A stretch of 46,669 nucleotides of DNA, taken from assembly GCA_938084765.1 (NCBI GenBank), contig CALKFO010000015.1, forward strand, positions 1-46,669. Reading direction: 5' to 3'. The position numbers were made by a program, and so were the translations under genes. The stretch is from Candidatus Bipolaricaulota bacterium. GTDB lineage: Bacteria; Bipolaricaulota; Bipolaricaulia; Bipolaricaulales; Bipolaricaulaceae. This document shows, one piece after another, positions 2,707 through 36,802 of the stretch (the stretch's first letter is position 1; every line of letters starts with the position of its first letter). The notes under the pieces are model-generated. The model saw only the letters and a program-made list of their open reading frames with translations. It had not been told where the DNA came from and ran no database searches.

Positions 2707-3846
2707 ATGGAGCCGCTCAGCCTAGGGGAAGGGCTCCTCGTCTTGGAGGACAGGGTCCAGCCCGGCCACCTGGTCATCCGTGCCGGGAAGATCGCGGAGC
2801 TCGGCCCGGCGGCCAGGCCGCGGGGGACGGTCATCTCCGTCCAGGGCCTTTACGTGGCCCCCGGTTTCATCGACCTTCAGGTCAACGGCGGCGGGGGCTA
2901 CAACTTCGAAGACGCTGATGTGGACGAGATCCGAAAGATCGCGGATTTCCACCTCGCCCATGGAACGACGGGACTCTTGGCCTCCCTCGTGAGCGGGCCC
3001 ATCCCCCAATTGCGCCGGGCGCTCGGCCGTCTTGAGGAAGCCGGCCATCCCGCGATCCTGGGCGTCCACCTCGAAGGACCTTTCATCTCCAGCCACCGGC
3101 GGGGCGCCCATAATCCCGACCACATCTCCGCGGTTTCTCCCGAACGCTTTGACGCCCTGGTGCAGGGTTTTGAGGGCCTGATCAAGGTGGTGACCCTTGC
3201 GCCGGAGCTGCCCGGTGCGGAGCTTCTGATCCGGCGCATCCGGGAAATCGGTGCCGTGCCGGCCCTCGGACACACCGATGCCACCTACGCTCAGGCGAAG
3301 GCCGCCCTGGATCAGGGGGTTCGCCTGTTCACGCACCTGGGCAATGCCATGTCCCTTCTGGGCCAGCGGGAACCCGGGGCGGTGGGAGCCGGCTTGGATT
3401 CCGAGGCCTATGTGAGCCTCATCTGTGACGGGGTGCATCTGCACCCGGCTTTCGTGCGCTTGGTGGCTAAAGTCAAGGGGTTCAACCGCATCTGCCTCAT
3501 CACCGATGCCATCTCCGCCACCGGCCTTCCCGACGGGATGTACTCCCTGGGCGGTCTCCCGATAGAGGTCCGGGGAGGAGTGGCCCGCCTTCCGGATGGA
3601 ACCCTGGCCGGAAGCACCCTCACCATGGACCAGGCGGTGTGGAACTTCTGGAGGTTCACAGGGTGCTCCCTCCCCGAGGCTGTGCGCTGTGCCACCTTGA
3701 ATCCCGCGCGTCTTTTAGGGATCGCCGACCATAAAGGAAGCCTTGAGGCTGGAAAAGACGCGGACCTTGTCGTCTTCGACGAAGAGCTCCGTGTACACTT
3801 CACGATCCTGGGCGGGAGGATTGTATACCGGCAGGGCTTGGGATAA
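2707..3846 (+). CDS. nagA: N-acetylglucosamine-6-phosphate deacetylase
   Basis: PGFIDLQVNGGGG, GVHLEGPFIS, ALGHTDATY, THLGNAMS, ICDGVHLHP, LITDAISATGLPDG, LAGSTLTM motifs. Confidence 0.93.
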   Translation: MEPLSLGEGLLVLEDRVQPGHLVIRAGKIAELGPAARPRGTVISVQGLYVAPGFIDLQVNGGGGYNFEDADVDEIRKIADFHLAHGTTGLLASLVSGPIPQLRRALGRLEEAGHPAILGVHLEGPFISSHRRGAHNPDHISAVSPERFDALVQGFEGLIKVVTLAPELPGAELLIRRIREIGAVPALGHTDATYAQAKAALDQGVRLFTHLGNAMSLLGQREPGAVGAGLDSEAYVSLICDGVHLHPAFVRLVAKVKGFNRICLITDAISATGLPDGMYSLGGLPIEVRGGVARLPDGTLAGSTLTMDQAVWNFWRFTGCSLPEAVRCATLNPARLLGIADHKGSLEAGKDADLVVFDEELRVHFTILGGRIVYRQGLG

Positions 3847-34214: not shown

Positions 34215-35177
34215 TCACTCCTTTATGAACCGCTGGCCGCCGAAGAGGAGGCCGGTGGCGAGCTTCTTGGCTTCCAAGGGGAACACGAACCCGATCTCCT
34301 CGGCCACGTCGAGGTTCAGCCACACCTGGGTCCCCGCTTGGCGCACGAAGGGGATGGCCGAGGGCGGGGTGCCCCCGAGGACCTGGAGGACGATCTGCCC
34401 GGTGAGGAGCCCGTGGTCGAAGTAGTCGAATCCGGTGCAGATCAACACGCCGCGCTCAAGACTCGTGGGATCAGCAAAGAGGAAGGGAATGCGATGGGCT
34501 TTGGACACGGCGACCACGGCATCCAGGGCGGCGGCCACGGTGTTGTCGGTGGTGCAGTAGATGGCGTCCACCCGGCCGATGAGGGACTGGACAGCCAAGG
34601 GGACCTCGGCGGTGGAGTTGGCTGCAGCCACGATGAGCTCAATGCCCAGCTCGGCGCAGGCTTTCTTCGTCATCTCGGTGAGGATGGCGGAGTTGGCTTC
34701 CCCTGGGTTGTACACCTGGCCCAAGCGCCGCAGGCCCGGCACGAGCTTGCGGAGGAGCTCCACATCGGCCCGGACGTCGATCATGTCCGAGGCGCCCGTC
34801 ACGTTGGGATAGCCGGTGAGGCCTGCTCCCACCGGATCGGTGACGGCGGAGAAGATGACGGGAATCGGGGTGTCGCGGAACACCTGCACCACGGCCTGGG
34901 AGCTGGGGGTGGTGATGGATATCACGAGATCCACGCCCCGGGCGCGGAAGTCCTGGGCGATGGCCATGGCCACGGAGAAGTCCCCCTGGGCGTTGGCCAG
35001 GATGTATTGGACGTTGTCTCCCGGCACATATCCGGCGCGGCGCAGGGCCTCGATGATCCCCTCTCGCACCGCGTCCAGGGCCGGGTGCTCCACGATCTGG
35101 GTGATGCCGATCACGAGGGGTCGGGCGGACCCCAGAATGCCCAAAACCACCAACGCCAAGACGACGAACTTCCTCAT
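34215..35177 (-). CDS. ABC transporter substrate-binding protein, TrpX-like (PF04392-type)
   Basis: Signal peptide; IGITQIVEHPALDAVREGIIEALRRAGYVPGDNVQYILANAQGD, VISITTPSSQAVVQVF, PVIFSAVTDPVGAGL. Confidence 0.88.
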   Translation of the reverse strand: MRKFVVLALVVLGILGSARPLVIGITQIVEHPALDAVREGIIEALRRAGYVPGDNVQYILANAQGDFSVAMAIAQDFRARGVDLVISITTPSSQAVVQVFRDTPIPVIFSAVTDPVGAGLTGYPNVTGASDMIDVRADVELLRKLVPGLRRLGQVYNPGEANSAILTEMTKKACAELGIELIVAAANSTAEVPLAVQSLIGRVDAIYCTTDNTVAAALDAVVAVSKAHRIPFLFADPTSLERGVLICTGFDYFDHGLLTGQIVLQVLGGTPPSAIPFVRQAGTQVWLNLDVAEEIGFVFPLEAKKLATGLLFGGQRFIKE

Positions 35178-35195
35178 TGCACACCCCCTTTAAAA

Positions 35196-35223
35196 CAAAA
35201 AACCGCAAGCTTCGGCTTGCGGT
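35196..35223 (-). terminator. Intrinsic terminator in the 5' UTR of the TrpX-like operon (putative attenuator)
   Basis: Minus: ACCGCAAGC-cgaa-GCTTGCGGT-TTTTTG, about 20 nt upstream of the ATG at 35177. Confidence 0.85.
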
Positions 35224-35226
35224 GCT

Positions 35227-35260
35227 GGGCATGACTCTCCTTCACGAGAGAGTCACGCCC
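35227..35260 (-). promoter_or_regulatory. Leader hairpin upstream of the terminator
   Basis: Minus: GGGCGTGACTCTC-tcgtgaag-GAGAGTCATGCCC, 13 bp with one G-U. Confidence 0.75.
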
Positions 35261-35332
35261 TCATGCGAACCAATACCCGCAGTACGCCTGCGCTCCCGCT
35301 ACCACCTCCTTTCCCCGCGTTCGTTCGATCAT
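35261..35332 (-). CDS. Putative aromatic-residue leader peptide MIERTRGKEVVAGAQAYCGYWFA
   Basis: 23 codons from ATG 9 nt after TATCTA; stop codon directly abuts the leader hairpin; Y, Y, W, F within the last seven residues. Confidence 0.55.
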   Translation of the reverse strand: MIERTRGKEVVAGAQAYCGYWFA

Positions 35333-35341
35333 CACGGTGCA

Positions 35342-35371
35342 TAGATACGACAAGACCATCCCCGCTGTCAA
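35342..35371 (-). promoter_or_regulatory. Sigma70-like promoter of the TrpX-like operon
   Basis: TTGACA (35371-35366), 18-bp spacer, TATCTA (35347-35342). Confidence 0.75.
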
Positions 35372-35530
35372 GGGGGGCAGGGCCTGGCGGTGCCGAAGCG
35401 CGCTCGCCGCTTTTTCGTTTGGGCATGGAGGTGCATCGGAATTGGGCCAAACCGGCGCGGCCCTCCGCGGACCATGAACCGGACCCAGCGCTGCGGTGTA
35501 TTTTTAGCATCACTCTTGGGGAGGTGGGGC

Positions 35531-36802
35531 ATGGCGAGGATCACTTGGATGGCTCTTTTTGTGGGCGTTGTCTTGGCCGTTGGCGCTTTGGGCCAACAAG
35601 AGGTGTACTACCTCACGGGCAACCTTCGGGAAGCCCGCGGCGTCATCACCACCGACAAGGGCGCGGAGGAAACGGTCTTCTTCGGACGGGTGGGGTTCAA
35701 AGTCATCCCTAGCCAAAAGGGAACGCAGCTTGGGCTCATCGAGCTCTCTTTGGTGTCCAAAGGGGTGGGCACGAGCAGCGGCCACACCGGGACGCTCGGC
35801 TTGAACCTCATCGATGACGACATCGCCTGGTACGATGCCCGTCTCCGCGGCGGGAGCTTCGCCCCCCGCATGGTCCTTCACTACGCCCTGATCGACCAAC
35901 TCCAGGGGTTCCAAACCCTGGGCACCCAAGGCGAGGACGACGCGTTCCTCCCCTTCACCGAGGGCATGGCGGGCAAGCTCACCCTCCGGCTTCCTGAGGG
36001 TTTGCAGCTGCGGGACAAAGGGTCCAGCACGGCGGAGATGGAGCTTGCCTTCGACCTCAGCTCTTCTGTGCTGGGCTTGGTCAAGCGGGTGGCGGTCTCG
36101 CTCAGGTTTTCCTTGGAATGGACGCGTTTGGTCTCCCCGACCTTGGTCCTCAAGGTTCAGCCCGTGTTCATCGGCTCGGGTCCTCTGGACCCCGCGCGCA
36201 CGGGCACCGCCTGGGACACCCTCATGTCCTATGCGCGCGTCCTTTGGGCCCGCTGCGGAAGCGTGCGCTGCATCACGTTTTCCGTGAATCCCCCGCTGTA
36301 CTTGAACAAACCGGCCTATAAAGTCCTGGAGACGCTGGACGAGGCAAGCGCTTTGCTGGGCGAGGTGGAGGTGGTGGACGCGGTGGAGGTGTTCGTGGTG
36401 AGCCGCATGGACTACGTATGCCGGACCGGAGGCGGAAGCTGCTACTCTGCGGGCACGGCCTCCGCCAAGATCGTGACCTGCGATCAGCAGCTTGCGGTTC
36501 CTAACCCCTGTCCCTGTCCAGATTATTGCCCCTCCACGTGTCCACCTTGTCCGCCGTGCCAAACTGGCAGGGTCAACCTGTACCATTTGGCCCATGAGCT
36601 GGGGCATGCGCTGAACTTGGCCCATCCGTCTGGCCCCAGCGGGAGCCTGGCCGCCAGTACCCCACGCTCCATCATGGAACCCAGCGGCTTTTGCTGCGAC
36701 AACCCCGCTGTGCAGAGCGCCAAGAACTGCCGCAACTTCAGCAATCCCCTTCTTCACTGGGGATACGCCGTCTGCAGCGGGAGCCCGGATATTCGGGACT
36801 GA
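35531..36802 (+). CDS. Secreted metzincin-like zinc metalloprotease
   Basis: Signal peptide MARITWMALFVGVVLAVGALGQ; YHLAHELGHALNLAHPS (HExxHxxxxxH) with downstream RSIMEPSG Met-turn; Cys/Pro-rich stretch before the zinc helix. Confidence 0.82.
   Translation: MARITWMALFVGVVLAVGALGQQEVYYLTGNLREARGVITTDKGAEETVFFGRVGFKVIPSQKGTQLGLIELSLVSKGVGTSSGHTGTLGLNLIDDDIAWYDARLRGGSFAPRMVLHYALIDQLQGFQTLGTQGEDDAFLPFTEGMAGKLTLRLPEGLQLRDKGSSTAEMELAFDLSSSVLGLVKRVAVSLRFSLEWTRLVSPTLVLKVQPVFIGSGPLDPARTGTAWDTLMSYARVLWARCGSVRCITFSVNPPLYLNKPAYKVLETLDEASALLGEVEVVDAVEVFVVSRMDYVCRTGGGSCYSAGTASAKIVTCDQQLAVPNPCPCPDYCPSTCPPCPPCQTGRVNLYHLAHELGHALNLAHPSGPSGSLAASTPRSIMEPSGFCCDNPAVQSAKNCRNFSNPLLHWGYAVCSGSPDIRD

Follow-up and report, generated by a model that had tools for sequence, protein, structure and literature searches.

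The leader upstream of the TrpX-type ABC transporter operon in the window (the whole analysed stretch of 46,669 nucleotides) is very probably, as judged from comparison among relatives, an aromatic, Trp-centred ribosome-mediated attenuator. A more specific reading, favoured with reasonable confidence, is a ribosome-mediated transcription attenuator that senses aromatic amino acids, has Trp as the pivot codon, lacks an antiterminator, and works by collapse of a spacer; the collapse step itself we would put at slightly better than even. The chances are about equal for and against a separate antiterminator-free class of attenuators, represented in three families, in which a hairpin (H1) would serve as a retractable spacer, translation would be near-leaderless, and a Shine–Dalgarno sequence would stabilise the RNA or make the ribosome pause.

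The window belongs to a genome of 1.17 Mb in 129 contigs, and the leader and the operon lie on its minus strand. The promoter TTGACA-N18-TATCTA (35342..35371; TTGACA at 35371–35366, an 18-nt spacer, TATCTA at 35347–35342) matches 9 of 12 consensus positions; the automatic promoter scan left it out because its -10 box ends in A. The leader ORF (V)MIERTRGKEVVAGAQAYCGYWFA* (35261..35335) starts with GTG at 35335 or ATG at 35332 and ends with TGA at 35263–35261. It contains an orphan extended Shine–Dalgarno sequence, AAAGGAGGTGGT (35301..35312; codons K-E-V-V), and the putative regulatory codon run Y C G Y W F A (35264..35284), with the pivot Trp codon at 35272–35270. The base right after the stop codon is the first base of H1 (35227..35260), a perfect hairpin of 14 bp (-26.9 kcal/mol), which is followed, after a gap of 3 nt, by an intrinsic terminator (35193..35223) comprising a hairpin at 35223–35202 (9 bp, 4-nt loop) and the U-tract TTTTTGTTTT. 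The leader transcript folds more strongly than its dinucleotide shuffles (z = -2.7). The first-pass annotation of this locus had listed promoter, leader ORF, hairpin, and terminator, all of which are present in the sequence; the hairpin does follow the stop directly, but is 14 rather than 13 bp long, and the terminator does precede the gene, but by about 25 nt, not 20. The near-leaderless start and the extended Shine–Dalgarno sequence inside the ORF are additional to that description.

Downstream of the terminator, a Shine–Dalgarno sequence read as AAGGGGGTGT (35181..35190) precedes the gene for a trpX-like substrate-binding protein (34215..35177; ATG at 35177, about 25 nt past the terminator hairpin), followed by genes with the Pfam domains of an ABC permease (PF02653; 33326..34210) and an ABC ATPase (PF00005; 32466..33326). 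The earlier assignment of the binding protein to the TrpX type (PF04392) is borne out by Pfam (244 bits), with the NCBIfam TrpX equivalog NF041285 matching at 211.7 bits, below its cut-off of 390 bits. Its PDB relatives 3lkv, 6hni, and 3lft are presumably binders of aromatic amino acids, and by family membership the transporter would carry these substrates. A divergent ORF on the plus strand (35390–36802) encodes HELGHALNLAH, a metzincin-like zinc protease motif.

A search over 100 genomes of the phylum yielded trpX relatives in 41 genomes, and 42 upstream regions were read. The leader is present in 41 of them, the exception (L123) being a paralogue with 29% identity; all intact trpX orthologs within the phylum have the identical set of parts, and no positionally conserved leader is seen at orthologs outside it. 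The leaders of the window's family (f1) end in [YF]xxYWFA-stop, with Trp (23 of 25) or Tyr (2 of 25) at codon -3 from the stop and Phe at codon -2 in all 25. Codons for Tyr and Phe in this run vary synonymously (TAT/TAC, TTC/TTT) with the residues unchanged, and the peptide outside the run varies freely. Among 22 aligned leaders, all gaps within the ORF are multiples of three, whereas those past the stop are not. Family f9 has the runs SRWYWFS..., FYWYWF..., and FFWYWT..., and its H1 is longer and includes the stop; f2 trpX leaders end in YSYWYPRF-stop or SYYYWFLRF-stop. Most relatives with the promoter region covered by sequence have a promoter score of 8–11 out of 12; the terminator is conserved in position in all relatives and differs in sequence from family to family. 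The original proposal of an aromatic leader that is translated and followed by a terminator ahead of a TrpX-type transporter is supported by this comparison. Two trpX copies occur in one genome, G025 (L086 and L111, 82% and 73% identical to that of the window), each with a full leader; in the G016 cluster L141, leaders are seen at 1930–2120, before a TrpB2 gene, and at 3484–3594, between TrpB2 and trpX, the latter with no obvious promoter of its own; and in G021 a TrpB2 gene is also found downstream of trpXYZ.

The codon run differs according to the gene that it precedes. A covariance model built from the f1 leaders recovered these and three new leaders. One of them, MEENPHRGEVIAGAKSFAWYWFN-stop with the run AWYWFN, precedes the TrpB2 gene in G016, its ATG lying 6 nt past the -10 box; the other two, ending in ...GYWFLMV-stop and ...LYYYFIWML-stop, precede LIV-type transporters. 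About 25 further leaders were found upstream of LivK-type genes, with runs such as FLVYFIIMLL, HLVYWITLF, and TLVIFVLM, and the LIV-type operons (L158, L159, L163–L190) show the same architecture with runs of L/I/V/F/Y/W/M codons. Three f2 trpE leaders (L199, L200, L201) are W-rich (...SWIFWPWFN-stop, ...ISWPWLN-stop, ...SISWLWIV-stop) and carry an SD-like sequence in the ORF, a hairpin, and a terminator, with a gap of about 8–11 nt, as measured by eye, between the last two. The residue facing H1 is Trp or Tyr in trpX leaders and mostly Ile, Leu, or Val in LIV leaders. Codon content therefore tracks gene function, being Y/W/F at trpX, W-rich at trpE, and L/I/V-rich at LIV operons. Of the comparative arguments for the reading of codons, this is the strongest; together with the conservation of the leader, it strongly supports ribosome-mediated attenuation. 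Non-conservation of the aromatic codons and the start in relatives had been named beforehand as grounds for rejecting the proposal, but both are conserved, and the sister leaders exchange the run along with the gene.

A different arrangement is seen at the trpE loci L196–L207, L210, and L211. Here a short ORF, usually with ATG and a strong Shine–Dalgarno sequence, reads M...[KR]GDR[LV]W followed by 4–23 codons, and the frame of trpE is +1 relative to it. The overlap AAGGGTGATCGNCTTTGG is similar to the +1 frameshift signal of prfB, except that TGA is replaced by TGG, the codon for Trp. In most cases a stop not far upstream of W closes the trpE frame, and the overlap offers no start other than a GTG that lacks a Shine–Dalgarno sequence. 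From its sequence, the overlap is a candidate for a starvation-programmed frameshift that would yield TrpE; no description of such a signal in trpE was found in the literature searched.

In the window, the GTG and ATG of the leader ORF lie 6 and 9 nt past the -10 box, and the start codon lies 5–11 nt past it in nearly all f1 and f9 trpX leaders with the promoter covered, whereas in f2 this distance is about 37–48 nt. By this promoter geometry, the f1 and f9 mRNAs should begin at, or 0–3 nt before, the start codon. A strict leaderless-promoter pattern occurs at only three sites in the window's genome, two of which are ahead of real genes. In two ordinary genes of this genome (L160 and L161, nucleoside-phosphorylase-like and FeoA-like by look), the start codon is 5–8 nt past a good -10 box; these sequences suggest that leaderless mRNAs occur in it.

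The orphan Shine–Dalgarno sequence AAAGGAGGTGRTC lies in frame within the f1 ORF. Its core GG.GGTG does not vary among 22 leaders of this family and is retained even where Glu is replaced by Gly. The consensus is complementary to the 16S 3' end GGCTGGATCACCTCCTTT, which is found in the genus and in 21 of 40 genomes of the family. In the f1 leader sequences, no start codon lies behind it at a spacing that would allow initiation, and translation start behind it was rejected on these grounds. At f9 trpX and LIV loci, an orphan GGAGGTG with no start codon is usually found just behind the terminator, in many of the trpX loci about 100 nt or more ahead of the real gene start. The best-known analogue is the STAB-SD of Bacillus thuringiensis cry3A (PMC4113751), likewise an anti-SD complement near the 5' end that pairs with 16S rRNA, starts no translation, and has no start codon behind it; the present element differs in lying inside the leader ORF (f1, f2) or behind the terminator (f9). 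The STAB-SD is marked, in addition, by 30S binding that blocks RNase J. The element in the leader ORF is probably accessory, a putative mRNA stabiliser that would bind the 30S subunit near the 5' end or, alternatively, a programmed pause site synchronising the ribosome.

The distances between codon run, H1, and terminator are confined to narrow limits. H1 starts 9 nt past the Trp codon in 18 of the 23 f1 leaders with Trp and close to that in the rest; in two other f1 leaders, it starts 9 nt past the Tyr codon. The leading edge of a ribosome is 15 nt from the first P-site base, hence the start of H1 coincides with the end of a ribosome that has the pivot codon in its A site. In L110, L116, and L118, H1 starts only 5–6 nt past W, which fits a Tyr rather than a Trp pivot. 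The gap between H1 and the terminator is 0–5 nt in all trpX and LIV sets. The length of H1 ranges from 28 to 61 nt (the automatic boundary finder over-extended it in about 7 of 40 trpX leaders): in f1, it is about 32 nt with the stop ahead of it, in f9, about 50 nt with the stop usually about 20 nt inside. H1 length and the stop position inside it are correlated (r = 0.83, mostly reflecting the two clades f1 and f9, with kinship ignored), and by this covariation the distance from stop to terminator stays near 36 nt. At 54 loci, it is 36.4 ± 5.9 nt (range 28–58, the minimum being 28), and shuffled stop positions (sd 13.7) never reach the observed spread; in L186 and L187, the stop is about 51 nt from the terminator. 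These distances are consistent with the published Escherichia coli range, where the tR2 terminator is nearly silent with a stop codon few nucleotides upstream and becomes fully active once the stop lies beyond about 27–30 nt, a threshold that applies to tR2 (PMC4824070). A trailing ribosome also reduces intrinsic termination in vitro (PMC10135430).

RNA folding with ribosome masks was computed for 40 trpX and 25 LIV leaders in three states, with no ribosome, with a ribosome at the pivot codon, and with a ribosome at the stop. In each of these, the terminator has a median probability of 0.96–0.98, while the H1 probability falls from 0.94–0.96 with the stalled ribosome to 0.00–0.04 with the ribosome at the stop. 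Upstream complementarity was compared with dinucleotide shuffles in three sets (52 leaders): no excess pairing is seen for the 5' strand of the terminator (mean z +0.32/+0.50/-0.01) or for its 3' strand (-0.10/-0.30/-0.48), with the two strands of H1 as a control reaching mean z of -4.2 to -4.5. RNAalifold on a MAFFT alignment did not show H1, because loop lengths differ, and pairs were therefore counted per sequence; as such counting is biased toward pairing, it is the shuffle test that carries the weight. The unaffected terminator and the lack of excess pairing indicate that the ribosome switches H1 and not the terminator fold. The first-pass annotation had been right to doubt that the two hairpins are mutually exclusive, and their compatibility is conserved across the whole leader class; as they never compete, blocking of the terminator seems to fall to the stalled ribosome itself. 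The leader shares with classical attenuators a conserved ORF with the putatively regulated codons, a terminator before the operon and, in silico, RNA folding altered by the stalled ribosome, whereas an antiterminator mutually exclusive with the terminator was not detected in these sets. A T-box or another Rfam RNA was rejected, with none found upstream of trpX and the sole sub-threshold match being a chance hit of a CRISPR repeat model.

These observations suggest the following scheme. The transcript would begin at or just before the start of the 23–24-codon ORF. With charged Trp, Tyr, and Phe tRNAs, the ribosome would get to the stop and cover the first 12 nt of H1 with its leading edge, so that, in constrained folding, H1 cannot form; at about 36 nt from the terminator it would permit full termination, both hairpins would form after its release, and the operon would be OFF. 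With uncharged aromatic tRNAs, the ribosome would stall in the run, and its edge would abut the first base of H1 when Trp is in the A site, so that H1 folds in silico. The folded H1 would take out about 34 nt of RNA and bring the ribosome to within 0–5 nt plus the width of the helix from the terminator, the effective distance being about 9 nt plus 0–5 nt plus one helix width. The bulky stalled ribosome may then keep the hairpin of the terminator from closing at RNA polymerase, with readthrough into trpXYZ (ON). Untranslated RNA would be terminated (OFF). Blocking with a hairpin between the ribosome and the terminator has no direct precedent.

A classical attenuator with a hidden antiterminator, in which an upstream segment would pair with a terminator strand upon stalling, is unlikely. 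Known ribosome-mediated attenuators do as a rule rely on such pairing (PMC9226507), and the overlap may be small, since the antiterminator of Corynebacterium glutamicum ilvBNC has only about 3 nt in common with the terminator (PMC11857589). However, the terminator strands lack excess upstream complementarity in the 52 leaders compared, no ribosome state disfavours the terminator, and its sequence changes across families with the leader logic retained. The one pairing suggested earlier, TGCGGGT:ACCGCA, does not survive comparison: most relatives have GTGTGG or similar at the former position, and the terminator sequence is wholly different in other families. About as unlikely is a role of H1 as a pause hairpin for RNA polymerase that only synchronises polymerase and ribosome, with regulation by the timing of release. 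Pause hairpins are known from leaders of the trp and vmlR types (PMC9226507), and H1 is both stable and melted by the ribosome; but the variable gap and H1 length leave no fixed pause register of 11–12 nt visible, and a pause by itself gives no reason for failure of the terminator under starvation.

Arrest by the nascent peptide, as in TnaC or Erm leaders, where the peptide itself would stall the ribosome, e.g., with free tryptophan or an antibiotic, could account for the strong conservation of YWFA* in f1, yet the rest of the peptide varies freely, other families carry WYWFS.., FFWYWT.., or SYYYWFLRF*, and the run is wholly different in trpX, trpE, and LIV leaders while the RNA architecture is the same; this explanation is improbable. 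Still less probable is translational control by masking of the trpX Shine–Dalgarno sequence with the freed 3' strand of H1. Among the closest relatives, pairing of CAUGCCC in H1 with GGGGGUGUG in that sequence is feasible, but the 3' strand shows no significant complementarity to the region downstream of the terminator (mean z -0.25/+0.39/-0.23), a strong terminator lies in between, and in f9 the gene starts about 130–310 nt past the leader stop. Nothing was found in favour of a non-regulatory locus, a chance ORF and an ordinary terminator of an upstream transcript. The leader is conserved at 41 loci, where gaps keep the codon phase, the geometry is fixed, and a promoter is present, and trpX orthologs of other phyla lack it; comparison leaves this reading a negligible probability.

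The preferred reading, attenuation with H1 as a ribosome-gated spacer, has partial counterparts in known systems. With trp, phe, and his attenuation of E. coli, the leader shares the short ORF of regulated codons, a terminator ahead of the operon, sensing through the position of the ribosome, and the (here predicted) ON state in starvation; it differs in having no antiterminator that shares a terminator strand, the ribosome gating a separate hairpin, and in its near-leaderless ORF with an orphan Shine–Dalgarno sequence inside. Suppression of a terminator by a close ribosome with no alternative fold, proposed here, is known from pyrBI (pyrL) and from terminators near stop codons (PMC4824070, PMC10135430). 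However, pyrBI responds to UTP through pausing of the polymerase, and translation of its leader extends as far as the terminator, whereas the ORFs described here end 28–58 nt before it, and amino acid supply would set the position of the ribosome and the hairpin its distance. The C. glutamicum ilvBNC attenuator, with Leu and Val as control codons, also has a leader hairpin adjoining the terminator, but there the antiterminator and the terminator share 3 nt and exchange pairs (PMC11857589), while in our leaders the two hairpins are separated by 0–5 nt and share no bases. The leader peptide ORF trpL of Sinorhizobium meliloti is leaderless, its AUG being the 5' end of the RNA, but it precedes trpE(G) and belongs to another phylum (PMC7298713). 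The trpX T-box of Streptococcus suis is reported as Trp-linked RNA control of the same transporter family (PMC9382623), in which the RNA reads uncharged tRNA directly, unlike the Bipolaricaulota trpX leaders, where no T-box was found.

Gene content also speaks for the attenuator reading. In the window's genome and genus, these genomes being incomplete, there are no matches to canonical trpB, trpE, or prephenate dehydratase (PDT), and two genus members have a TrpB2-like match only; the genus is apparently auxotrophic for aromatic amino acids. Among the 100 genomes, trpX and canonical trpB avoid each other (both in 5 of 100; Fisher p = 0.018, kinship ignored), and trpX shows no significant association with PDT.

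Textbook attenuation has two RNA folds competing for one strand. At least 65 leaders, upstream of two kinds of amino-acid transporters, have an attenuator-like layout with non-competing folds and distances in narrow limits. Leader-peptide attenuation, leaderless leader peptides, and suppression of terminators by ribosomes are each known singly; what is new is their combination without a competing fold, in Bipolaricaulota, for which the part of the literature that we searched describes no attenuator. If the proposed mechanism is true, amino acid supply could be read from ribosome position and distance alone, a two-hairpin switch of this kind could be designed, and suppression of intrinsic terminators by ribosomes would be a natural principle of control. 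The leaders would also provide a first picture of amino acid sensing in a largely uncultured and little-studied phylum.
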